From a virus, in IMG/VR virus record IMGVR_UViG_3300045136_000882, positions 1-35,786 of that record: 35,786 bases of DNA, one strand, 5' to 3'. Below are positions 4,044-35,440 of the stretch, one piece after another (the first letter of the stretch is position 1; the number at the start of each line of letters is the position of its first letter). The notes beneath the pieces were generated by a model. The model ran no database searches. It had not been told where the DNA came from and saw only the letters and a list, made by a program, of their open reading frames with translations. Position numbers and translations under genes: made by a program.

Positions 4044-4486
4044 GTCAGCCTCCCCCGAGACAACCGCGCCGGTGGCGTCACAGTCGGGCGCAGCGCGCCG
4101 CCAGACGCCCCGCTCAGCAGGAGCGCCACGTACTCCGCCCCCGCCGACGCCGTGATGCGCCCATCAGCCACAGGCGCGACTCCCAGTGCCGCGGCCACCG
4201 AGCCCGCACCATCAATCGACCCGGAACCCATGATTGCCAGCGCCACAATCGCGTCCGCGCCATCCCCTGCCAGCAAGCGGCCACCAGCCCCGCTCCCCGC
4301 AACCGCCGACAGAGTGACCGGCGCTGCGTCCGCTCCATACGCCAGAGCGCCAGAGGGTGCCGATGCAGCCAGCACTGGGAGCGACAGCGGGACAGCCAGC
4401 ACGCGCCAAGCCCCGGTGTAATCACGCCAGCGGTCAATCAGCGTCCGCCAAGCTGGATAGCATGGAGAGCCAGCGGTCAGCGTCAT
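4031..4486 (-). CDS. Gly/Ala-rich tail-region protein, unknown
   Basis: A 151-residue protein whose ATG overlaps the previous stop as TGATG, showing translational coupling. After an N-terminal segment (TLTAGSPCYPAWRTLIDRWRDYTGAW) it becomes rich in Ala, Gly, Ser and Val, with repeated AGAGAG-like and GSGSIDGAGSV stretches, ending in an Arg-rich tail. Such composition suits a beta-structured or glycine-rich fibre accessory. Position among fibre genes supports a tail-fibre or adsorption role, but no family is recognised. Confidence 0.6.
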   Translation of the reverse strand: MTLTAGSPCYPAWRTLIDRWRDYTGAWRVLAVPLSLPVLAASAPSGALAYGADAAPVTLSAVAGSGAGGRLLAGDGADAIVALAIMGSGSIDGAGSVAAALGVAPVADGRITASAGAEYVALLLSGASGGALRPTVTPPARLSRGRLTWRF

Positions 4487-5106: not shown

Positions 5107-8100
5107 TCACTGCGGCTGCCCGCAACTCACCCCCTGAACCGCCACATCGGTCACCACTTCCAATGAGTAGCTGTTGTTGTATTGGTCCACATAGTTGATG
5201 ACCTGCTTCGTCACAGCCAGAGTCACGGTCACGTTGTGGCTATGGCTCGACGAAGAGTAAGCGCTGTGCGTATGGTTGCCGGCGGCCACATCCCCAGCGC
5301 CAGTACCAACGTTGCGATACGCCGCATTGCCCAGCGTCTGTCCGTTTACTGTCAGTGACGTGATGAAGTTCCCCGTATACGCCTGGACAGACTGGAAGAT
5401 GCCCTGCCCTGAACCGTTAACCCCCCAATAGTTGGAGCTCACCGCCCCGCAATATACGGTCCCAGACCCAGGGGAGAAGGGGTTCGACGCGACGTTGATA
5501 AAGCCCAGCACGTATAGATTGCCTACGGCGTAGTCGAGCGAGTCGCTAACCAGCTTGTTCGCGTAGATGAAGCCGATCTGGTTATTGCTGATGGTGCCCG
5601 TGATCTTGTCGGCGGTGATCGAGGCAATCTGGGTCGCCTGAATCGAGCCGGTGATCTTGTCCGCGCTGATCGAGGCGATCTGGGTGGATTGGATCGACCC
5701 GGTGATCTTGTCCGCGCTGATCGAGGCGATCTGGGTGGATTGGATTGACCCGGTGATCTTGTCCGCGCTGATCGAGGCGATCTGGGTGGATTGGATTGAC
5801 CCGGTGATCTTCGACGCTTCGATGGAGGCGATCTGCGTAGACTGAATCAGCCCGGTGATCTGGGTTGCATTGACCGCCTGAATCTGAGCCGCCGTGATAA
5901 GCCCAACAATGGCCGAGGCATTCACCGAGGCAATGTCAGTCGAGGTGATGCTGCCGGTCAGTTCCGCCGACGGATCGACCCGCACCCATGAGCCGCCCTG
6001 GTTCTTCCAGAGCGTTCTATCGGAAGACCGCAGCACGATACAGCCATTCGGGTAATTCGCATCCGGCAGCGTCGGCAGAGACGGCACCTTCACCGAGATC
6101 CCCATGCCGGACGCAATGAGCCGCGCCGAGTTGAGGATCTGGTCGGCAAGCTGCTGCGAGACGATCACTCCCGTGATCGCCGTGGCGCTCACAGAGCCGA
6201 TCTGGCTGGATTGCAGTACGCCGCTCACCTGGTTCGCATTGATCGACTGGATCTGCGATGACGCGATCTGACCGGCGATCTTCTCGGCGGCAATCGAATC
6301 GATCTGAGACGACTGGATCAGCCCGGTGATCTGCGTGGCATTGATCGACTCGATCTTGGACGCCGCGATCAGACCCTGGATCGACTCCGCGTTCACGGAG
6401 CCGATGTGCTGCGCCGCAATCGCCCCCGGATTGATCGTGACCCGCCCGCTGGCATCCACACTCACCGGGCCAGTCACAGCGCCCGGAGACACCTTGCCAG
6501 CCGTCACGCCGCTCGACGCAGGCACAGTCGCCAGCACTACCGGCGGATTGTCAGCGTTCTCCTGCCCCAAGCTGTTACACGCGACGGCCTTAAAGAGCCA
6601 GTACTCCGGCTGGCTCGGCAGAGGCCACCAGCTGCCCGGCCCGCCCGTGATGATCGACGCCACCTTATCCGGCAGCCAGTCAGCCAGCGGATTCCCAAGC
6701 GAGTCCGCTGGCCGCCGGTAGACGTGAATGTGGTGGAAGTCTGGATCATTCGGGGGCGTGAAGGCGAACACGAAGCGCCCGCGCGGAATGTCTTGCGACT
6801 GGTCGGTTTCCACCGTGACAGACCAGTTAGCCACCTGCTCGCTCAGCCCCGCCTGTGGCAGCCACACCGACGCCACCGGGAGCGTGCCGTCCTGATAGTC
6901 CGACGGCTTCGGCCAGAAGCCATCCGCCGGAAGCTGAGCCACCAGCGCCAGATGGATGTATTCCCCATCCCCCGCCGGAGGCGGAACCCACATCGTGATC
7001 GTGCTCTCGGCGGTATTCGCCTCGGTCGGCCCATAGAGTGAGTACAGAGGCGGCTCAGAGTCCACCGAGCGGTACTCATAGATGCCGTACACCACCCCTG
7101 GAATGTCAAGCGGCGTCCAACTCAGATCCAGCTTGCCGTATCGAATGCCGTTGCCATCATCCCAGTAGCCGTTGAGCTGCGCGGTGAAGTTCCAAGTATG
7201 CCCCGTGCCCGGCACAGCATCCCCAAGCGGGAGATGCAGGGAGTACGGCCCGGCCACATCACTCCACGCCCGGCCCACGCCGGAGCGGTCGCGCGCGACA
7301 GCCCGCAGCCAGAACTGAATCGACGTGCCTGGCGTGATCGGGAACCACGCACTATAGACCGTGGGCGAATCCCCCGGCCGATGCTCAGCAATCCCTCGCA
7401 GCAGCGCCCAACCGGAGGCATCCGATGGCTCCGACTCATCAGCAAAGCGCACATAGATATCCGAGCCGCCATATTGAGGCTGCGAGAGCACATCGCCGCC
7501 CAAGGTCACAGCAAACCGGTACGCCCAGCCGCCCTCGGTGTGCTTGTACTCCACAGCAGACGACTGGATCGACGGAGCCCCAAGTGCCACAGACTCGCTG
7601 CTCAGCGTGACCACCGTGCCCCACTCGGAGGGCACAAATTGCGGTTCTCCGTTCTCCCATGAGATCCGAGCCGGTGTGCGAACGTAGCCATCCCCCCACT
7701 CGCCCGCCAATTGAATCGCCACCTTCGCCGGGAGCGCGGCGGGAAGGGGGATGGATAACTTGACCCACCCATACGCCTCAGGAAACGTCGTGCCGACGCC
7801 CTCGTAGGGCCACCGACCATGTGGCTCGTTTTGCGGGCTCTGCTCGGTGGAGCTGTAGGCGTAGACCGCGGCCAGATTGGTGGACGGATAGATCGGGAAA
7901 TACGCCAGCCGTATCTCAGCCCGGCCATCCACCACCTCGAGCGTGGTCATCATGGGCTCGATGGCAGGGCCCAGATGCCCCTGAGCCGCCATGGCGGCGA
8001 CATTGGTGAAGTCAAGCGTCACAGCCACCCATGGCGAGGCGTCCGCCGGAGCCGCCGGACTCAGGCTCGTCAGCCGTTTCAGCGGCTGGCAAGCCTCCCA

Positions 8101-10665
8101 GGTTTCCGTGAGCACATAGAAGACCCAGGTAATCTTGAGCGGTTGCGAGGGCGTGTAGCGCGCTGCCAGCCATGTGTCTGGCGGGAAGGGCAGCGCAATC
8201 TCCATCCGCACGGGTTGACCTGGCTGGGCATACTGGGGCCCGACAAAGAACATCTGCCCTGGCAACGTGGGGTGTTCCAGATCCGGGTCGTTTTCCTGCG
8301 GAATCTCGACATACACCCTGAATTGCGACAGGCTCTCAAAGTCCGGAGCCGTGCCGGTCAGTGCGAGTCGCACCTGCCTGGCGTCAACATCCAGCGCCAC
8401 ATCCGCCGCCGCGAGACCGTTGATGCCGGGGATCAGGGACGTGAGCGGTTTGAAGATAGCCGGCACCGTGAGGGTGGCCTGCGGCGCCTCATCGCTGTAA
8501 ATGCCCAGGCTGTAAAGCTGGCCGGTCAGGATCACCTCGTCGTCTTCGAGGAACGACATCTCCGTGATCCGGAACGGAACGGCCTGCAGCCCCACTTCGC
8601 CGGCCGACACGGCGATGACGTCGCCGATCTCCAGCAGGCTGGCGCGCAGGTCCGTCCGGAAGGTGATGTACCTTCCAAGATCCCTGGCCTTGGCGCGCAT
8701 CCATTGCCCGATGCGCCATGCCTGGTTGTAGTTGTCGATGGCGGACCCATCGACGTCCAGATTCTCGACCCGGCGCACCTGAGCCTGGTGCTCGTAATCG
8801 TTGATGCGGAGCTCGCGCGGCTCGAATCCAGCGGGTGCATCGACATATTTGACGGTGACGCGGTTGTAGCTCGGCTGGCGGTCCGCCAAGGGATACTCGA
8901 GGTCGCCAACGATCGAGCTGTCGTCGAAATACATGGCGATCCGGTGCAGCACCGCGCCGGCATCATGGGCGAACTGCACTGGCGCCGCCAGGGACAGCTG
9001 TCCCGGCGCAACCGCGGAAATTACCGCGATCTCTGCCGCCGCGGTGAATGGATTCAACAGGATCAGGTCGCCAGCCAGCAGACCCGCCACCGAAGCTACG
9101 TCCAAAGTCTGCGTGCCATGCGCGGCCGCGGCCACCAGGCTCGTGTTCGGCTCGGGCTTCTCGACGCAGATCTGGAGCTTGCCATCCTTGGAATACTTTC
9201 GGAAGCCTCGGAAGGCCGGGAACAGCTTTCGCTGCAGAATGTCGATTGCCTTCTCCTGCTTGGCGATGGCCACATTCAGCGTGAACCGCTTGATCTGCTT
9301 CTGCGGCGGAGGGGCCTCGTCGAGCGCCGGGGTATAGGTCTCATAGGGCCCATCATCGAGTTCCCCGATCCCGGAGACGCCCGTGCTTTGATACCGCCTG
9401 TAGTCTTCGCCTGGCGTGACAGGAGCCTCCGGCGGCACGACGATCATCTGCGACCCGGTCACATCCGTGATCAACTCGTCGCAATAGGCCGCTTCGCGGG
9501 CCAGGTGCGCATCGTCGATCCACTCGAAGGGGAACCCCATCCCTCCTTGCGCCAGCGGAAGAGTCAGCAGGTGCCGGACATTCCAGATCGGGTTATCGGT
9601 CCACTCGGTGGTAACGAGATTGCCCTGCTCGTCGAAGACCGCCACGATCGATCCGAGGAGGACGCAATCGACGGCGGGCGCCGGATCTTCCTGCGTGACA
9701 TCGCTTGGCACAGTGATGCCGGCGTAGCACAGCAGCGAATAGGGATATGCCCCGGGGAAGCGAGGATCTGGGAGCTGATTTCCCTCCCCCCCGAACTGGC
9801 CGGCATGAGCAGACCAATCCGTGACGACTTGGCCATTCGCGCGCAAATAGGTGATCGCCGAGCAGGCGCCTGCGGCGAAGGCCGCAAGAATCTTCGTCTG
9901 CCCGCCTTCATCGACGTGTTGGATAGGTATGCCAGTAATCTGTGTCCGCCCGAGGACGATGGGGATCGGCAGATCGTAGATGACATCATCGACCGCGTTG
10001 AACACGGCCGTGACCGTTTTCTCTTTCTTGCGGGCCCAGAGCCCCAGAGTGTACCAGGTGCGCTGCTTCTCGACCTGCTTGTATTGATAAACACCGCTGT
10101 GCGGGATGAAGCGGAATCCGCCGAAACGGGCCGTGTTTCCGAGCTGCTGGCAGCGTGCCCAGCTCTTGTTGCACTCGTTCTCGGTCCCGCCATAGGCGCA
10201 CTCCTCGCCCTTGAACTGCCAGGGGCAAGAGGGCGAGAACACCCTCGCGGGCACCTCCACGTCAATCGAGCCCAGCAGCTCCCGTGCCGTGATTTGAGCC
10301 GTCTTCTCATCGATTCTGGACGGCCTGTCCATGAGTCCGTTGAACAGCACAATGCTGTCGCCAGCCACGGAGCGGTCGATCTTGCGGATGATCAGGCGGC
10401 GGCCCTCAATGGGCTCGGTCAACAGCAGCTGGGCGACGGCGGTGTCGACGTTGGAGAGCGTTACGGTGACAGAATCGATCTCACGCTCCGACCGGCGCAC
10501 ATCGGACCGGTCCACGACGTAAGGCAGATACTCATGGCCTTCCCAGGTAATGTGCTCGGTGGAGTAATAGCGGATACCGCTGTCGAGATGCAGCTCATAC
10601 AGGTCGAGCGGCTGGCACTCGGCCGAGAAGAGCTTGGCGCGGAGGGCGGAGCTCACCTGAATCAC
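5107..10665 (-). CDS. Giant gpL-gpJ fusion: tail tip, central hub and fibre
   Basis: An 1852-residue protein with an ATGA overlap to the gpM-like gene. Residues 1-190 match lambda gpL: a beta-rich start and four Cys (147, 156, 165, 172) in CPWQ...GEEC...ENEC...ARC, followed by FGGFRF; in lambda gpL such Cys hold an iron-sulfur cluster. Residues about 450-760 are the gpJ-like hub (AIDILQRKLFPAFRG; YNQAWRIGQWMRAKARDLGR). Residues 760-1400 look like fibronectin-III-type or beta-sandwich domains. About 1410-1700 hold 17-residue repeats. The C terminus has GNHTHSAYSSSSHSHN, a His-rich stalk motif, and a short tip. In lambda L and J are separate, with K and I between; here no K or I gene is seen. 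It should close the tail tube and contact the receptor. Confidence 0.88.
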   Translation of the reverse strand: MIQVSSALRAKLFSAECQPLDLYELHLDSGIRYYSTEHITWEGHEYLPYVVDRSDVRRSEREIDSVTVTLSNVDTAVAQLLLTEPIEGRRLIIRKIDRSVAGDSIVLFNGLMDRPSRIDEKTAQITARELLGSIDVEVPARVFSPSCPWQFKGEECAYGGTENECNKSWARCQQLGNTARFGGFRFIPHSGVYQYKQVEKQRTWYTLGLWARKKEKTVTAVFNAVDDVIYDLPIPIVLGRTQITGIPIQHVDEGGQTKILAAFAAGACSAITYLRANGQVVTDWSAHAGQFGGEGNQLPDPRFPGAYPYSLLCYAGITVPSDVTQEDPAPAVDCVLLGSIVAVFDEQGNLVTTEWTDNPIWNVRHLLTLPLAQGGMGFPFEWIDDAHLAREAAYCDELITDVTGSQMIVVPPEAPVTPGEDYRRYQSTGVSGIGELDDGPYETYTPALDEAPPPQKQIKRFTLNVAIAKQEKAIDILQRKLFPAFRGFRKYSKDGKLQICVEKPEPNTSLVAAAAHGTQTLDVASVAGLLAGDLILLNPFTAAAEIAVISAVAPGQLSLAAPVQFAHDAGAVLHRIAMYFDDSSIVGDLEYPLADRQPSYNRVTVKYVDAPAGFEPRELRINDYEHQAQVRRVENLDVDGSAIDNYNQAWRIGQWMRAKARDLGRYITFRTDLRASLLEIGDVIAVSAGEVGLQAVPFRITEMSFLEDDEVILTGQLYSLGIYSDEAPQATLTVPAIFKPLTSLIPGINGLAAADVALDVDARQVRLALTGTAPDFESLSQFRVYVEIPQENDPDLEHPTLPGQMFFVGPQYAQPGQPVRMEIALPFPPDTWLAARYTPSQPLKITWVFYVLTETWEACQPLKRLTSLSPAAPADASPWVAVTLDFTNVAAMAAQGHLGPAIEPMMTTLEVVDGRAEIRLAYFPIYPSTNLAAVYAYSSTEQSPQNEPHGRWPYEGVGTTFPEAYGWVKLSIPLPAALPAKVAIQLAGEWGDGYVRTPARISWENGEPQFVPSEWGTVVTLSSESVALGAPSIQSSAVEYKHTEGGWAYRFAVTLGGDVLSQPQYGGSDIYVRFADESEPSDASGWALLRGIAEHRPGDSPTVYSAWFPITPGTSIQFWLRAVARDRSGVGRAWSDVAGPYSLHLPLGDAVPGTGHTWNFTAQLNGYWDDGNGIRYGKLDLSWTPLDIPGVVYGIYEYRSVDSEPPLYSLYGPTEANTAESTITMWVPPPAGDGEYIHLALVAQLPADGFWPKPSDYQDGTLPVASVWLPQAGLSEQVANWSVTVETDQSQDIPRGRFVFAFTPPNDPDFHHIHVYRRPADSLGNPLADWLPDKVASIITGGPGSWWPLPSQPEYWLFKAVACNSLGQENADNPPVVLATVPASSGVTAGKVSPGAVTGPVSVDASGRVTINPGAIAAQHIGSVNAESIQGLIAASKIESINATQITGLIQSSQIDSIAAEKIAGQIASSQIQSINANQVSGVLQSSQIGSVSATAITGVIVSQQLADQILNSARLIASGMGISVKVPSLPTLPDANYPNGCIVLRSSDRTLWKNQGGSWVRVDPSAELTGSITSTDIASVNASAIVGLITAAQIQAVNATQITGLIQSTQIASIEASKITGSIQSTQIASISADKITGSIQSTQIASISADKITGSIQSTQIASISADKITGSIQATQIASITADKITGTISNNQIGFIYANKLVSDSLDYAVGNLYVLGFINVASNPFSPGSGTVYCGAVSSNYWGVNGSGQGIFQSVQAYTGNFITSLTVNGQTLGNAAYRNVGTGAGDVAAGNHTHSAYSSSSHSHNVTVTLAVTKQVINYVDQYNNSYSLEVVTDVAVQGVSCGQPQ
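5600..5854 (-). repeat. Array of 51-bp tandem repeats inside the fibre gene
   Basis: Five consecutive 51-base units. The middle three (5651-5701, 5702-5752, 5753-5803) are almost identical; the flanking two are diverged. Each encodes 17 residues of the form ISADKITGSIQSTQIAS. A second, more diverged set of the same protein repeat occupies about 6150-6420. The near identity of the central copies points to recent expansion, which would change fibre length. It is intragenic and in frame, so it is not a CRISPR array. Confidence 0.9.
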
Positions 10666-29044: not shown

Positions 29045-30151
29045 TCACGCAGCCCGCTGCGTGCTCCCTCCGGCCAGGTCCACCACGCGTGCCGGCACCC
29101 TCATGCCCGGCTGCACGTCGAGCGTCGACCACATCTTCGTGAGCACCTGCGAGCAGACGTTGTTGATTTCGAGCGGATAGCCCAGCGCCGGCACGCCCGG
29201 CTTCCGCCGGAAGCGCGCAAACAGCGCCTCGGCCGCGGCCGTCTCGAATACCTGCTCGATCGAGCTGCCCACCCGCTTCAGCTTGAAGTCGAGATACTCG
29301 CGCACGAACACCGGCGGGATCTCGATCATCCGCGTCCGGTGGCCGATCTCCGGCGTCCGGTACAGCTTCTTCGGCAGCTCCTCCGTGCCCACCAGAACGA
29401 TCGCCAGCAGCCTGTGCCGGCCCGCCTTCTCCTCGTGGAACGCCTTCAAGGCGCGCAGCACCGGAGCGTTGCAGTGATGCGCGTCGTCGATGTAGAGCAC
29501 CACCCGCCTGCCGCCCTCATGGCCCATGCGCAACGCCAGCAGCGTCCGGCTCAGCAGCCGCCCCTGATCCTCGGCGTTGGCCGGGATCTTCGCCGTCTCG
29601 CCCGTCATGGCGAACAGCAGCGCGCGAGTCAGATGGCCGTCGCTCAGCTTCTCCTTGTCCTTGATGCGCGGCTTGCAGATCACGTCGCCGCGCAGGGCGA
29701 GATCGGCCTCGATGCCGTCCATCATCGTCGTCTTGCCCGAGCCCACGGGCCCGACGACGGCCACCATCGCGCACTCGTCGATGGCCTCGCGGATCTGGCG
29801 GTCGATCTTCGCGTACGTCTTGTAGCGGAATACGTCGGCGTCATCCTCCACGTCGTTCACGAACGGATCCGCCGTGAAGCGGAAGTGCTGGAGGATCGCG
29901 GCATCCAGTTTCATCGGTTCAGCCTCCTTGCTCCTGCCGAGGAGTCCTCCCCCCGGCATCTCGATCGGTTCACTGCCCAGGCCGTGCTCGGCGAGCACGG
30001 CCGCCAATGCATCCATAAGGTGGGTGCGCCGCCTCACCGGCAGCTCCCCATCGTTCACGAGCCGTTCCAGCGTGCTCTTGCTCACCCCGGTCATCTCGGC
30101 CAGCCGGCGGTAGCTCAAGCCCGTCTTCTGCACGGCCTCCCGAATCGTCAT
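29045..30151 (-). CDS. B: MuB-like AAA+ transposition target ATPase
   Basis: A 368-residue protein starting MTIREAVQKTGLSYRRLAEM, with GGAGGCCGC upstream; longer readings are unsupported. Residues 1-60 form an XRE-like helix-turn-helix (TGVSKSTLERLVNDGELPVRR), as in Mu B. The ATPase starts at about 80: Walker A GPVGSGKT (134-141) and Walker B VVLYIDDAHH (217-226), sensor VGTEEL near 275. The C-terminal ~60 residues are helical. B binds target DNA and brings it to the MuA complex, giving target immunity. It follows the transposase stop by 8 bases. Confidence 0.9.
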   Translation of the reverse strand: MTIREAVQKTGLSYRRLAEMTGVSKSTLERLVNDGELPVRRRTHLMDALAAVLAEHGLGSEPIEMPGGGLLGRSKEAEPMKLDAAILQHFRFTADPFVNDVEDDADVFRYKTYAKIDRQIREAIDECAMVAVVGPVGSGKTTMMDGIEADLALRGDVICKPRIKDKEKLSDGHLTRALLFAMTGETAKIPANAEDQGRLLSRTLLALRMGHEGGRRVVLYIDDAHHCNAPVLRALKAFHEEKAGRHRLLAIVLVGTEELPKKLYRTPEIGHRTRMIEIPPVFVREYLDFKLKRVGSSIEQVFETAAAEALFARFRRKPGVPALGYPLEINNVCSQVLTKMWSTLDVQPGMRVPARVVDLAGGSTQRAA

Positions 30152-30159
30152 GCGGCCTC

Positions 30160-31836
30160 CTACGCCTGCCCGGCGCGCAGCGGAATCACCTCCGCGACGA
30201 CGCCGCGCTCGATCTCCTCCACCACCGCCCGGATCTCGCTCTCGGTGACGCGCTCCCCGAACCGTCCCAGCAGACGCTTCTCCGTCGGTTCCAGGCCGCG
30301 GCCAATGCGCGCGGCCACCTCCAGGCAGGCATCGACGCGGCTCCACGCCGCCTCTTCCGCCTGGCCCGAGATCTCCGTCTCGCGGCTCCGGATTCCGCTC
30401 GACTCCAGCCCTTCGAGATGGTAGCCCCGCGTAACCAGCCGGCCGCCCGGCCAGGTCTCCGCGATCGCCCGCGCCTCTTTCACCAGCCGCTGCGCCGGCC
30501 CTTCCTTCCGGCTCTTGAACTCCTGCCCGATGACCGCCGCGTCGGCGAAGAAGCCGTGCTCGTTTCGCTCCAGCGGCTCCAGCACGAACTTCGGCGCGCC
30601 CATCTCATCCGCGCGCACGGCCACATTCGGGTAGTCCCACGGGCTGTACTCCACCAGCAGTTTCTTCCGGTGCAACAAAACATCAGGCACCCGGTAGTGC
30701 TTGCCGCGGTACCGCACCGTCCCATCGCCCGCCACGCGCACCGGCTGAGCCGCCGCCACAGCGTACCGCTTGGCCACTTCGAAGCTGCAATTCGGCACCC
30801 GCAGCTGCGTCTCGAAACTTCGGTTGATGTGCCACTCCCAGTGATCCGAGCGCGGGCTGCCGTGCCGCGTGTGCTTCAGCGTCCTGCACAGATGGGCCGC
30901 ATACTGCACAGCCTCGTCGTTGAGCTGCTCGATCGACTCAACAGGCTCGGCCCGGAACCGGCTCTCGAAGCGCTCCTCCCACCAGCCATGCAGGCTCTCT
31001 ACCTGCCCCTTCGAACGCGGACCCTCGCAGATGTTTGGCCGCACGTCCAGCCAGGCTAAGAAGTTTCGGAATACCTCCGACCTCGTGCCCGGCCCGCGGT
31101 CGATCATCAGGATCCTCGGCACTCCGCGGAACGGATAGACGTCCGTGATGTCGCGCCCGTCGCAGCGCTTCTTCGTCCACGCACGCCACAGCCCCTCCAC
31201 CAGCAGCATCACGTTCTCCCCCACCGATGCTGCGTACCAGACGAAGAACGCCCCCGAGCAGTGGTCCGTCACAATGAATCGCCACAGCCGCGGCTCGCCC
31301 TCGGCCGGCAGCTTGTTCTTGTATACCCAATGCTCGTACACCGGGCGGTTGTTCTTGATCTTCCAGTTGATCGCCAGCGAGAAGTCCGCCTGGTGCACAT
31401 GATTGGGACCAAGGCTCGCCAGGTGGATGTGCCGCGTCGGCTCGTCCAGCACGTTCCTGCCTCCGCCCTGCCCCCGCGCCCAGGCGCGGTAGGCGTCCGC
31501 CGATACGATCCCCGCCGGAATGCGTCCATTCCGCTCGGCGACCTCGATGGCCACCTCGGCCGGCATCAGCAGCCCGGCACCCTGCTTGTAGCTCGACAGC
31601 TGCACCGCGAAGACCTCGGCGTAATGGCTCTCCACCGGAGCCGGAGCCCTGTCCTCCCGGTCCGCCTCGGCGGCCCGGAACCGGAGCCCGCGCGCCGCCA
31701 GCATGCGGCTGAATGTCGTGCTGCTGACGCCGAGCATCTGCTCCAATTCACGCCTCCTTGCCGCCCGCCGGCGGCGGTCCATCCGGCTCAGGTCCTCCAG
31801 TTCGCCCTCGAGCCACGCAGGGAACGCGGGGGCCAT
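30160..31836 (-). CDS. A: MuA-like DDE transposase
   Basis: A 558-residue protein, GGAGCAATAGGCGATG at the start. Residues 20-60 hold a helix-turn-helix type DNA-binding domain (RRELEQMLGVSSTTFSRML). The catalytic core has D151 (NHVHQADFSL), D246 (RILMIDRGPG) and E280 (SKGQVESLHGWW), with D246-E280 spaced 34 residues as in the DDE-integrase fold. The Mu-type beta barrel and C-terminal tail follow (PDVLLHRKKLLVEYS; helical end for contact with B). It cuts and joins phage ends during transposition. Mu A is longer (663); the N-terminal enhancer-binding domain appears reduced. Confidence 0.93.
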   Translation of the reverse strand: MAPAFPAWLEGELEDLSRMDRRRRAARRRELEQMLGVSSTTFSRMLAARGLRFRAAEADREDRAPAPVESHYAEVFAVQLSSYKQGAGLLMPAEVAIEVAERNGRIPAGIVSADAYRAWARGQGGGRNVLDEPTRHIHLASLGPNHVHQADFSLAINWKIKNNRPVYEHWVYKNKLPAEGEPRLWRFIVTDHCSGAFFVWYAASVGENVMLLVEGLWRAWTKKRCDGRDITDVYPFRGVPRILMIDRGPGTRSEVFRNFLAWLDVRPNICEGPRSKGQVESLHGWWEERFESRFRAEPVESIEQLNDEAVQYAAHLCRTLKHTRHGSPRSDHWEWHINRSFETQLRVPNCSFEVAKRYAVAAAQPVRVAGDGTVRYRGKHYRVPDVLLHRKKLLVEYSPWDYPNVAVRADEMGAPKFVLEPLERNEHGFFADAAVIGQEFKSRKEGPAQRLVKEARAIAETWPGGRLVTRGYHLEGLESSGIRSRETEISGQAEEAAWSRVDACLEVAARIGRGLEPTEKRLLGRFGERVTESEIRAVVEEIERGVVAEVIPLRAGQA

Positions 31837-31839
31837 CGC

Positions 31840-32745
31840 CTATTGCTCCAGCGGCGGCTTCTCCAAAGTCTCGTACCACTCGCCCAGCAAATCCCTCTTG
31901 CGCGCCGTCATCTCGGCCACGTCCAGGTTGATCGCCGGGTACGGGCGGTTGTTCGGCCCCTCCGCATACTGCTGCATGGTGTCCCACCAGATCTCGTGGT
32001 AAATCGACCATGCCCAGTTGGCCAGCCCCACGAGCATGTCGATCTGACGCTCGTTGAGCTCCTCCTTCAGAAGCCCCCGTAGCCTCGTCGCCTGCAGCAG
32101 CAGCTGCGTCTGGATGTCCAGCATCCGCGAATGGAGCGGATCCTTCGTCCAGCGGTACTGGGCGTTGCGCTCGTGCTCCAGCGCTTCTTGCAGCTTCGTC
32201 ACCCGCTCCTCGCTCTCCTTGGCGAGCGCCTTCTTCTCCTCCAGGGCCTCCGTAAGCCGCTTGGCCGACTTCTGATGCGCCTCCCTCTCCCGCCGCGCCT
32301 CCGCCTTGAGCTGCTTCACATAGGCCCGGATCTTCTCCGCGTTCGCCTTGTTGACCTCCACCTCCTCGCCATCGATCACCAGCTTGCCGTCCTCATTGAA
32401 GTCCATGTAGCGGTAGACCTCGCCCGGCACCCGGCAGCCGGCCGCCTCCGCCAACTCGAAGATCTTCTGCCCGTGCTGCTCCAGGTCCTTGATGATGGCG
32501 TCGATGAACGGGCGTGTGCGGTTCAGCACCGTCGGGCAAAAACGCTCCCAATCCATCCCGAGCCGCCTGTAAGCGCCGCTATCCTTCAGTCGCTTAAGGG
32601 CAACGGCCTGAGTGTAGGTGCAGTACTGCGCGATGTGGGCTGCCATTTTGACCGCGCCGCTGAGCTCGCCGATCTGTAAGAGATCCATCATCGCTTCGTC
32701 GATCTCTTCGCCGGCCCGCTGGAGCGCTTTCTTTCCGTCTTCCAT
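31840..32745 (-). CDS. Coiled-coil early protein preceding the transposase
   Basis: A 301-residue protein starting MEDGKKALQRAGEEID with GGGAGGCGAG upstream and 3 bases between its stop and the transposase start. The first ~95 residues are helical (GAVKMAAHIAQYCTYTQAVAL; RLGMDWERFCPTVLNRTRP). A long coiled coil occupies about 130-200 (EKIRAYVKQLKAEARREREA; EALEEKKALAKESEERVTKL). The C-terminal part is helical (ERQIDMLVGLANWAWSIYHE). A role in transposition or replication is inferred from position. No family is recognised. Confidence 0.75.
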   Translation of the reverse strand: MEDGKKALQRAGEEIDEAMMDLLQIGELSGAVKMAAHIAQYCTYTQAVALKRLKDSGAYRRLGMDWERFCPTVLNRTRPFIDAIIKDLEQHGQKIFELAEAAGCRVPGEVYRYMDFNEDGKLVIDGEEVEVNKANAEKIRAYVKQLKAEARREREAHQKSAKRLTEALEEKKALAKESEERVTKLQEALEHERNAQYRWTKDPLHSRMLDIQTQLLLQATRLRGLLKEELNERQIDMLVGLANWAWSIYHEIWWDTMQQYAEGPNNRPYPAINLDVAEMTARKRDLLGEWYETLEKPPLEQ

Positions 32746-32754
32746 CTCGCCTCC

Positions 32755-32840
32755 CGTAACTGCGTTACGATTCCTGTACTGAAAACAAAGGGTTTACTCG
32801 CAACAAGAGCGTGAAAAACCGTAACCTGTTACGGTTTTTC
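32755..32840 (-). promoter_or_regulatory. Twin GTAAC/GTTAC hairpins (terminator/attenuator-like), copy A
   Basis: Two inverted repeats share the core GTAAC/GTTAC. 32813-32840 forms a perfect 13-bp stem with a 2-base centre on the stop codon of the winged-helix gene, with T-rich arms, and looks like an intrinsic terminator. 32755-32769 is CGTAACTGCGTTACG, directly next to the ribosome site of the coiled-coil gene. All arms can pair with one another, so alternative structures are possible. The AT-rich stretch between may hold a promoter for the transposition genes, but no clear consensus was found. Confidence 0.6.
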
Positions 32841-33080
32841 CAGCCTCACCTCCGGGACCAGGCGCACGGCCCGGGGCCCAAGGACCCAGACCGGGCGCCG
32901 CGGCCCGGTGCCCACATCGCGGAGCCAGCCCATCTGGGCTAGCGCCCGCAGATATCTCGATGCCTGCGCCCTCGTCCAGCCGAGCTGCTCGGCCACAACC
33001 GTGACCCGCAGCCCGCCGATCCGGCCGGCCAGCTCGATCAGATCGAGCCCCTTGCGCAGGCTCTCGAATGCATCCGTCAT
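32829..33080 (-). CDS. Small winged-helix regulator, duplicate copy A
   Basis: An 83-residue protein (MTDAFESLRKGLDLIELAGR), with LGWTRAQASRYLRALAQMG as recognition helix and RPVWVLGPRAVRL as wing. It resembles IclR-type N-terminal DNA-binding domains, in which the winged helix alone is retained. This copy has the same sequence as copy B. Its leader begins with GAGGCGAGATGGAAGAC, a truncated end of the 74-residue gene, so it retains GGAGGCG before its own ATG. It should be a second dose of the same regulator, perhaps of the GTAAC operators. Confidence 0.8.
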   Translation of the reverse strand: MTDAFESLRKGLDLIELAGRIGGLRVTVVAEQLGWTRAQASRYLRALAQMGWLRDVGTGPRRPVWVLGPRAVRLVPEVRLEKP

Positions 33081-33124
33081 CGCCTCCGCCGCGCCTCCTC
33101 GATCAGGTCTTCCATCTCGCCTCC

Positions 33125-33210
33125 CGTAACTGCGTTACGATTCCTGTACTGAAAACAAAGGGTTTACTCGCAACAAGAGCGTGAAAAACCGTAACCTGTT
33201 ACGGTTTTTC
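33125..33210 (-). promoter_or_regulatory. Twin GTAAC/GTTAC hairpins, copy B
   Basis: Identical to copy A by duplication: CGTAACTGCGTTACG at 33125-33139 and the 13-bp stem at 33183-33210, covering the stop of winged-helix copy B. Here the downstream gene is winged-helix copy A rather than the coiled-coil gene, so any attenuation now affects a regulator copy. Confidence 0.6.
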
Positions 33211-33450
33211 CAGCCTCACCTCCGGGACCAGGCGCACGGCCCGGGGCCCAAGGACCCAGACCGGGCGCCGCGGCCCGGTGCCCACATCGCGGAGCCAGCC
33301 CATCTGGGCTAGCGCCCGCAGATATCTCGATGCCTGCGCCCTCGTCCAGCCGAGCTGCTCGGCCACAACCGTGACCCGCAGCCCGCCGATCCGGCCGGCC
33401 AGCTCGATCAGATCGAGCCCCTTGCGCAGGCTCTCGAATGCATCCGTCAT
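33199..33450 (-). CDS. Small winged-helix regulator, copy B
   Basis: Same 83-residue protein as copy A. The ATG overlaps the stop of the 74-residue gene as ATGA, with GGAGGCG upstream; longer in-frame starts run antisense-like through that gene and lack support. This is probably the ancestral position, since it retains normal coupling to its upstream neighbour. Helix-turn-helix at residues about 25-50 and wing at about 55-75. Confidence 0.82.
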   Translation of the reverse strand: MTDAFESLRKGLDLIELAGRIGGLRVTVVAEQLGWTRAQASRYLRALAQMGWLRDVGTGPRRPVWVLGPRAVRLVPEVRLEKP

Positions 33451-33671
33451 CGCCTCCGCCGCGCCTCCTCGATCAGGTCTTCCATCTCGCCTCGCGCGGC
33501 GGCGTAGCTGTCGTAACGGTGGCCGGTCGAAACGGCCAGCATCCAGCTGCCTCCTTCGGCCCGGACCATCACATGCCCGGCCCATTTCCCGTTCACCTTG
33601 TCCGCCGTGGCCATCGCCTCATTCCGCGCGATCGCATCCACGGTGATCCTGCTCAGCGTCTCCACGCCCAT
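33447..33671 (-). CDS. Small hypothetical early protein
   Basis: A 74-residue protein starting MGVETLSRITVDAIARNE with AGGAGGCCGTGC upstream. The middle reads VNGKWAGHVMVRAEGGSWML and AVSTGHRYDSYAAARGEM, suggesting a beta sheet followed by a helix, and the end is LIEEARRRR. Part of its 3' end forms one of the three 17-bp repeats. It overlaps the membrane protein gene by 53 bases. No family is recognised. Confidence 0.68.
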   Translation of the reverse strand: MGVETLSRITVDAIARNEAMATADKVNGKWAGHVMVRAEGGSWMLAVSTGHRYDSYAAARGEMEDLIEEARRRR

Positions 33672-34708: not shown

Positions 34709-35440
34709 ATGAATCTTCCTGAAGCTATCCGCTCAATCCGCCATCGCACGGGAAAGACACTTGTCCAGCTCGCCCAGGTATTGGGAGTCAAGAATCCCAC
34801 TGTGTCCCAATACGAGAGCGGAAAGGCGAAGCCGAGTCCGAAGGTTCTGCTCCTCCTGCTCGAGATGGCGGAGGGCGAAGAGCGTCAGCCGATCTTGGAG
34901 GAGCTACGCCGCAAAGGAGTCCGGACAGTCGAGGATGCCAAGCGCGTGCTTGGGGTCTTGGTGGATGAAGAGGATGATGTTCCCGAGGGTCTAGTCCAAC
35001 TGGCTCAGCACCTGCGCCGGCGCGTCCAGCAGAATCTGGACGTCGAGCCAATCATTCTGGAGCTGCTCGAGCTGCAAGAGAAGCATGCCTCGGACCCCCG
35101 CTTCTCAGACTTCTGGCTGCGTCTCACCCAGTTCATCGACCGCGAGCTCGAGGACAGGCTCGGCCGCCGGCCGCTGCGGCAGCCTAAGTATGTCCCCCCT
35201 CCTGAACCTGGCGGCCCGCCATATAGTAAGGATGACCCGCGCTACGAGAACCAGATCCTCTGGGTCATGACCTATTGCTACTACGACAAGAAGCCCTTCT
35301 GGACTGGCTTCACGACGACCCAGAAGCACTACGAGCATGCGAGCATCCCGGACATGAGGGCGGTCTGTCCGTATTGTCATATCTCCCAGGTCTGGAACAG
35401 GGACAATGCCTGGCTCGCTCTGCCAGGATCCCAGCGATAA
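34709..35440 (+). CDS. XRE-family repressor with unusual CxxC C-terminus
   Basis: A 243-residue protein, the only confident plus-strand gene in the phage. Residues 5-60 are an XRE helix-turn-helix (GKTLVQLAQVLGVKNPTVSQYESG). About 75-155 is helical and acidic, probably for dimerisation. The C-terminal ~75 residues have YENQILWVMTYCYYDKK, KHYEHA and CPYCHISQVWNRDNAW, where CxxC and nearby His could bind metal. There is no LexA/CI peptidase signature, so control is likely not by RecA-induced self-cleavage. No good ribosome site precedes the ATG. The last 131 bases overlap an oppositely oriented gene. Confidence 0.82.
   Translation: MNLPEAIRSIRHRTGKTLVQLAQVLGVKNPTVSQYESGKAKPSPKVLLLLLEMAEGEERQPILEELRRKGVRTVEDAKRVLGVLVDEEDDVPEGLVQLAQHLRRRVQQNLDVEPIILELLELQEKHASDPRFSDFWLRLTQFIDRELEDRLGRRPLRQPKYVPPPEPGGPPYSKDDPRYENQILWVMTYCYYDKKPFWTGFTTTQKHYEHASIPDMRAVCPYCHISQVWNRDNAWLALPGSQR

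Follow-up and report, generated by a model that had tools for sequence, protein, structure and literature searches.

We propose that a regulatory cassette in a B3-like transposable prophage was duplicated recently, and that the two palindromes in this cassette are operators of the 301-aa protein encoded directly downstream, a joint reading to which we assign a probability of about 0.68. The prophage lies in the window, as we call the whole analysed stretch of 35,786 nucleotides (IMG/VR record IMGVR_UViG_3300045136_000882). Taken alone, the duplication is nothing unusual, a recent event in a single record. What deserves attention is the cassette, in which a regulator and its operators appear to be paired across a whole family, with two bases apparently set by two residues. 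No description of this pairing was found in the open-access literature searched.

The 370-bp tandem duplication and its surroundings

Repeat analysis of the window identified positions 32737–33493 (minus strand) as a head-to-tail repeat with a period of 370, 100% matches and no indels. Two 370-bp units, which differ at 0 of 370 positions, are followed by a terminal third copy of a 17-bp sequence, and the exact self-match length in the window is 387 nt. The 17-mer, GAGGCGAGATGGAAGAC on the minus strand, has three exact copies at 32737–32753, 33107–33123 and 33477–33493; allowing up to three mismatches, no further match was found in the window, with 0.08 expected. Each unit holds a full ORF for an 83-aa IclR-type winged-helix protein and two palindromes, CGTAACTGCGTTACG and AAAAACCGTAACCTGTTACGGTTTTT. 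The original prediction of a 370-bp tandem duplication framed by three 17-bp copies was borne out, at 100% identity and with exact coordinates.

The same prediction placed the 17-bp repeats at gene boundaries. The proximal copy (32737–32753) does provide the SD sequence and start codon of the 301-aa gene, and it is the same in the closest relative, L031, but the distal copy (33477–33493) falls inside a 74-aa ORF (33447–33671, minus strand), at the GEMED codons in its 3' part, about 12 codons upstream of its end. The junction copy (33107–33123), between the units, gives the SD sequence and ATG of a 12-aa mini-ORF (33077–33115, minus strand). Here the start site of the 301-aa gene is fused in frame to the end of the 74-aa ORF, which yields MEDLIEEARRRR. 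The stop of the 74-aa ORF overlaps the start of the distal winged-helix gene (33199–33450, minus strand) as ATGA, and the end of the mini-ORF likewise shares an ATGA with the start of the proximal winged-helix gene (32829–33080, minus strand), to which the mini-ORF is presumably coupled. Both copies thus keep a plausible translation start, and both are probably translated. The 83-aa product matches Pfam HTH_IclR (E=5e-10; 39.4 bits vs. a cut-off of 22) as a DNA-binding domain only; the IclR effector domain is absent from the 83 residues.

Judged by its genes, the prophage is B3-like and transposable: a Mu-type transposase (30160–31836, minus strand; phrog_310, 1.7e-47) is followed by a MuB-like AAA ATPase, the DNA transposition protein (29045–30211, minus strand; phrog_296, 1.2e-28). 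The early order in the window is Ner-like, CII-like, winged helix, phrog_4623 and transposase, as in Beetrevirus records. The transposase is immediately preceded by the 301-aa gene (31840–32745, minus strand) and not by the winged-helix gene. Its product matches the phrog_4623 profile over residues 17–214 (E=1.4e-10), which places it with that family. Fold searches with the whole 301-aa protein and with its N-terminal domain gave no reliable match to a solved fold, a result that is silent on membership. A candidate HTH_3 repressor gene is divergent (34709–35440, plus strand). At the other end of the window, positions 1–804 are a FliA/WhiG sigma factor gene which lies outside the stretch colinear with a relative and is probably host flank, making the record probably a prophage with a host junction. 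Beside the sigma gene, positions 832–955 match an array of ~63-bp repeats near the end of the relative prophage (L076, 6800–7862). Separate 51-bp tandem repeats, at 5600–5861 and 6236–6375, lie inside an 1852-aa tail-type ORF (5107–10665).

How old is the duplication? Among IMG/VR and GenBank phages, searches with the DNA, with the 301-aa protein and with a degenerate pattern for the winged helix returned no near relatives, and the transposase as a single-protein query had no match in viral contigs and matched only L004 in genomes. The genome of L004 is a Bryobacteraceae MAG. A profile search of its order yielded the Bryobacterales genome G544 (relative L031), while phylum and family searches added no genome; the remaining related loci came from profile scans. 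From about base 975 to its end, the window is colinear with the prophage in G544 at 75–96% identity. L031 has a single unit at the matching place, and the 370-bp unit is ~92% identical to this segment over 307 alignable columns. In the 44 further related loci we found no tandem copy and no bracketing direct repeat of similar length; what repeats longer than 12 nt those loci have are the palindromes themselves. All 45 related loci, L031 included, therefore have one unit or no tandem copy, and the case in which all homologues carry two diverged copies is excluded by the loci examined. Identical copies, ~92% identity to a relative and a single unit in that relative fit the predicted recent event bracketed by a 17-bp repeat. 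Together with the lack of any duplication in the 44 loci, the single unit in L031 argues for a recent event, private to this record and derived from a single-unit ancestor, rather than a conserved switch.

The proximal 17-mer of L031 is identical to that of the window, and its distal counterpart (about 7910–7935) differs at four positions, so that distal and proximal agree at only 13 of 17. The expected "two natural repeats" are therefore valid for this record only. All four differences make the window copy at 33477–33493 match the proximal 17-mer. The distal 17-mer may have been converted towards the proximal copy, or the relative may have lost the match. For a conversion of the outer copy, simple slippage or unequal crossing-over is not a sufficient explanation.

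One alternative is an assembly artefact, in which a single genomic unit was doubled at the 17-bp repeat by the assembler or by contig joining. Perfectly identical copies, single units in every relative and a window that is a record without reads would all suit this explanation. However, assembly normally uses k-mers longer than the 17-bp repeat, which means that reads would have to contain the junction between the units, and a wrong join over 17 bp would require two contigs that both ended precisely at the repeat. We consider an artefact unlikely, though worth keeping in mind, and infer that the duplication is real. The original prediction also raised a reversible duplication and deletion that would switch the dosage of early control. 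Perfect 370-bp tandems recombine readily, and both winged-helix copies stay translatable. Any such tandem is unstable, however, and this instability does not make the duplication a switch. Since every relative examined lacks both a second unit and a comparable bracketing repeat, the distal 17-mer matches at only 13 of 17 positions in the closest relative, and there is no sign of selection on copy number, the switch is not supported and we regard it as highly improbable.

Paired palindromes at the phrog_4623 gene

Each unit carries a palindrome P1 (distal copy 33183–33210, proximal copy 32813–32840), CCGTAAC-NN-GTTACGG in an A/T-flanked hairpin, and a palindrome P2 (distal copy 33125–33139, proximal copy 32755–32769), CGTAAC-NNN-GTTACG, with a centre-to-centre distance of 64.5 bp. 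All four are putative operators. In most relatives, two matched palindromes lie in the leader or in the 5' coding part of the phrog_4623 gene. The half-site is common to both palindromes of one phage and differs between phages: CCGTAAC in the window, CCGTAAA in L031, CCGCAAC in L004, GGGGA in L006 and CCGGTCAA in L007. Spacing is fixed within each group, at 63–65.5 bp in the leader type and 76 bp in the Pseudomonas phages examined; the remaining relatives carry the pair within the phrog_4623 gene, at a distance of 90 bp or, in two cases, 87 bp. A best-pair score of at least 24 was reached by 33 of 46 gene regions, window included, vs. 2 of 138 random stretches from the same loci, a contrast that is not a probability since the loci are related. 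For L041, L053, L054, L059, L061 and L072, the sites were identified by visual inspection of the DNA; those in L072 have no spacer base. Allowing up to two mismatches, the window has no sites beyond the four in the duplication, and in the scanned stretches of eleven phages exact copies occur at the pair and almost nowhere else.

A protein-level cause of the repeated motif (VTVT and similar) was considered and rejected. At 76 bp, the two sites of the Pseudomonas phages fall in different reading frames, which points to a constraint on the DNA and not on the encoded amino acids, and L014 keeps its palindrome with different synonymous bases.

The palindromes might instead act as RNA hairpins, as a terminator or attenuator. 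P1 does fold well (-18.5 kcal/mol, z -3.15; z -3.66 in L031) and is flanked in the window by A and T runs. In most relatives, however, the pair is inside a coding region, the stems are short (6+1+6) with the same half-site used twice, the half-site tracks a recognition helix (see below), and a scan for consensus terminators found none. RNA hairpins in place of protein operators are thus a rather improbable reading. Of the predicted terminator/operator role, the operator part is the better explanation, as a putative operator pair of the downstream protein; P1 may also be terminator-like, and a double role for it, as operator and hairpin, is possible.

Between P1 and P2 lies a conserved spacer motif, GTAAACCCTTTGTTTTCAGTA (32777–32797, second copy 33147–33167, minus strand). 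The non-palindromic form GTAARYCYTTTGTTTTCARTR is conserved in the window-type phages (L031 8236, L007 3266, L004 4145), and in L004 it has the opposite orientation relative to the genes. An invertible segment between the palindromes was considered on account of this inversion and left, the segment being coding in most relatives. The motif was not found elsewhere in the window, so there is no sign of a transposase end site, and a sigma-70 scan detected no promoter between the palindromes. One candidate for binding the spacer motif is the winged-helix protein, which has a conserved recognition helix in these phages.

Sites outside the common pattern were seen in a few loci. L007 has a third exact copy of its half-site palindrome, GGTCAACTTGACC, at 2002–2014, at the start of the Ner-like gene, and the reader may therefore also act at the early promoter there. 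In L061 (about 4088–4200) the two sites are identical and are imperfect palindromes (GGTAACGGTTTCC); L041 and L053 share the right half of this site.

Covariation of a predicted recognition helix with the half-site

If a protein reads these palindromes, which one? We compared half-sites with 296 alignment columns of the phrog_4623 protein in 35 representatives (L034 numbering), a set that left out L006 and the loci with no readable pair. Base 4 of the half-site is best tracked by residue 95, with a z of 7.7 against shuffles that do not remove shared ancestry; the next column reaches 3.6. Base 3 tracks residue 91 (z 8.0, shuffles), beside columns that merely encode the sites. Where base 4 is C, residue 95 is Arg or Lys in all five cases; where it is G, Glu is found in 11 of 12, and where it is A, Asn or Gln in 9 of 18. 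Common contacts of amino acids with bases pair Asn or Gln with A, Arg or Lys with the G opposite C, and Glu with the C opposite G, and the observed pairings match them.

AlphaFold2 models were made for the window protein and for the N-terminal domain of L034 (local pLDDT above 80, mostly above 90). In these models, residues 91 and 95 take positions 2 and 6 in the second helix of the predicted helix-turn-helix. In the window protein, the predicted recognition helix comprises residues 78–91 (32473–32514, minus strand), and P79 and A83 align with the specificity residues 91 and 95.

Among disjoint sister pairs, residue 95 differs in five of the six that differ in base 4, and so it does in four of the nine that do not, which makes residue 95 suggestive in this test and not its top column. 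The code has exceptions in L004, L041, L054 and L059, and the window and L031 both have Ala at the residue-95 position yet differ in base 6 of the half-site. With phylogeny only partly controlled, residues of the predicted recognition helix covary with site bases in this family, as looked for in an autoregulator. The covariation suggests a phage regulator not described before, whose DNA code can be read in part.

The obvious rival reader is the winged-helix protein, which has a clear DNA-binding fold and whose gene adjoins the palindromes and was duplicated with them. Put through the same covariation test, its alignment peaked at z 3.2, with no column that tracks the half-site. Identical winged-helix proteins (L048 and L054) go with different half-sites, and near-identical ones (L036, L039 and L064) with three different half-sites. 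It is very doubtful, on these grounds, that the winged-helix protein rather than the 301-aa protein reads the palindromes. In both sets, alike winged-helix genes stand beside phrog_4623 genes with different helices and sites. From such comparisons, the boundary between the winged-helix gene and the phrog_4623 gene looks like a recombination point.

A proposed specificity cassette and known systems

In the mechanism that we favour, a recent tandem duplication would have joined the 17 bp at the start of the 301-aa gene to the matching 17 bp near the end of the 74-aa ORF, within what is probably the early operon of the B3-like prophage. The duplicated unit would be a regulatory cassette, with the winged-helix gene followed by a leader that has two matched palindromes, and these would be DNA operators of the phrog_4623-related protein directly downstream. 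This protein would bind each palindrome as a dimer through its helix-turn-helix, its recognition helix setting the half-site. Binding in its own leader would limit expression of the 301-aa gene and of the transposase genes behind it, most likely by repression. The duplication would double the winged-helix gene, with both copies translatable, and would raise the operators from two to four while the proximal pair stayed as far from the 301-aa gene as before. More winged-helix protein would be expected, and control might become stronger or change.

For the family as a whole, we think it fairly probable that the phrog_4623/DUF3102-like proteins of B3-like phages form an undescribed family of operator readers. 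Each would read its own fixed-spaced pair through a half-site partly predictable from two helix residues, reader and sites would form a specificity cassette that moves independently of the winged-helix gene, and the outcome would be a phage-specific control of transposition, with the pair just doubled in the window prophage. A link to the DUF3102 label itself (PF11300) is possible: 1 of 30 N-terminal fragments matched this Pfam family, at E=0.001. This reading proposes a function for a family that is annotated as unknown or as 'ATPase' and immediately precedes the transposase in many phages, phages of Pseudomonas aeruginosa among them. The family is also a natural data set of a protein and its binding sites changing together, even with the sites inside its own coding sequence.

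Pseudomonas phage B3 and Beetrevirus have the same gene order, from Ner-like HTH through CII-like, winged helix, DUF3102/phrog_4623 and transposase to MuB-like ATPase. The early operon of the B3-type phage Fc02 begins with the pE promoter at ner and extends over the transposase genes, and B3 has been proposed to have an additional promoter among its early genes (PMC9936078). The proteins are distant, however, and tblastn with the window 301-aa protein finds none of them. Window-type phages have the palindrome pair in the leader and not in the gene, whereas B3 itself, with a DUF3102-annotated protein (ORF13) at the same place, has no pair.

Lambdoid repressors and operators have an immunity-like specificity: from phage to phage, a different recognition helix goes with different operators. 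The phrog_4623 proteins resemble them in this joint change. The ParB and Noc proteins, with their sites parS and NBS, offer a second likeness, as related DNA-binding proteins described as differing in their DNA preferences, which specificity-switching mutations change (PMC7383237). No sequence or fold match to ParB was found, which is not proof of difference. Unlike the ParB/Noc sites, the palindromes here lie in or beside the gene of their putative reader, as a fixed-spaced pair that varies phage by phage. In contrast to the lambdoid arrangement, the pair is not at the divergent repressor promoter, where a different palindrome is found (TTCTAGACACATCTAGAA, 34660).
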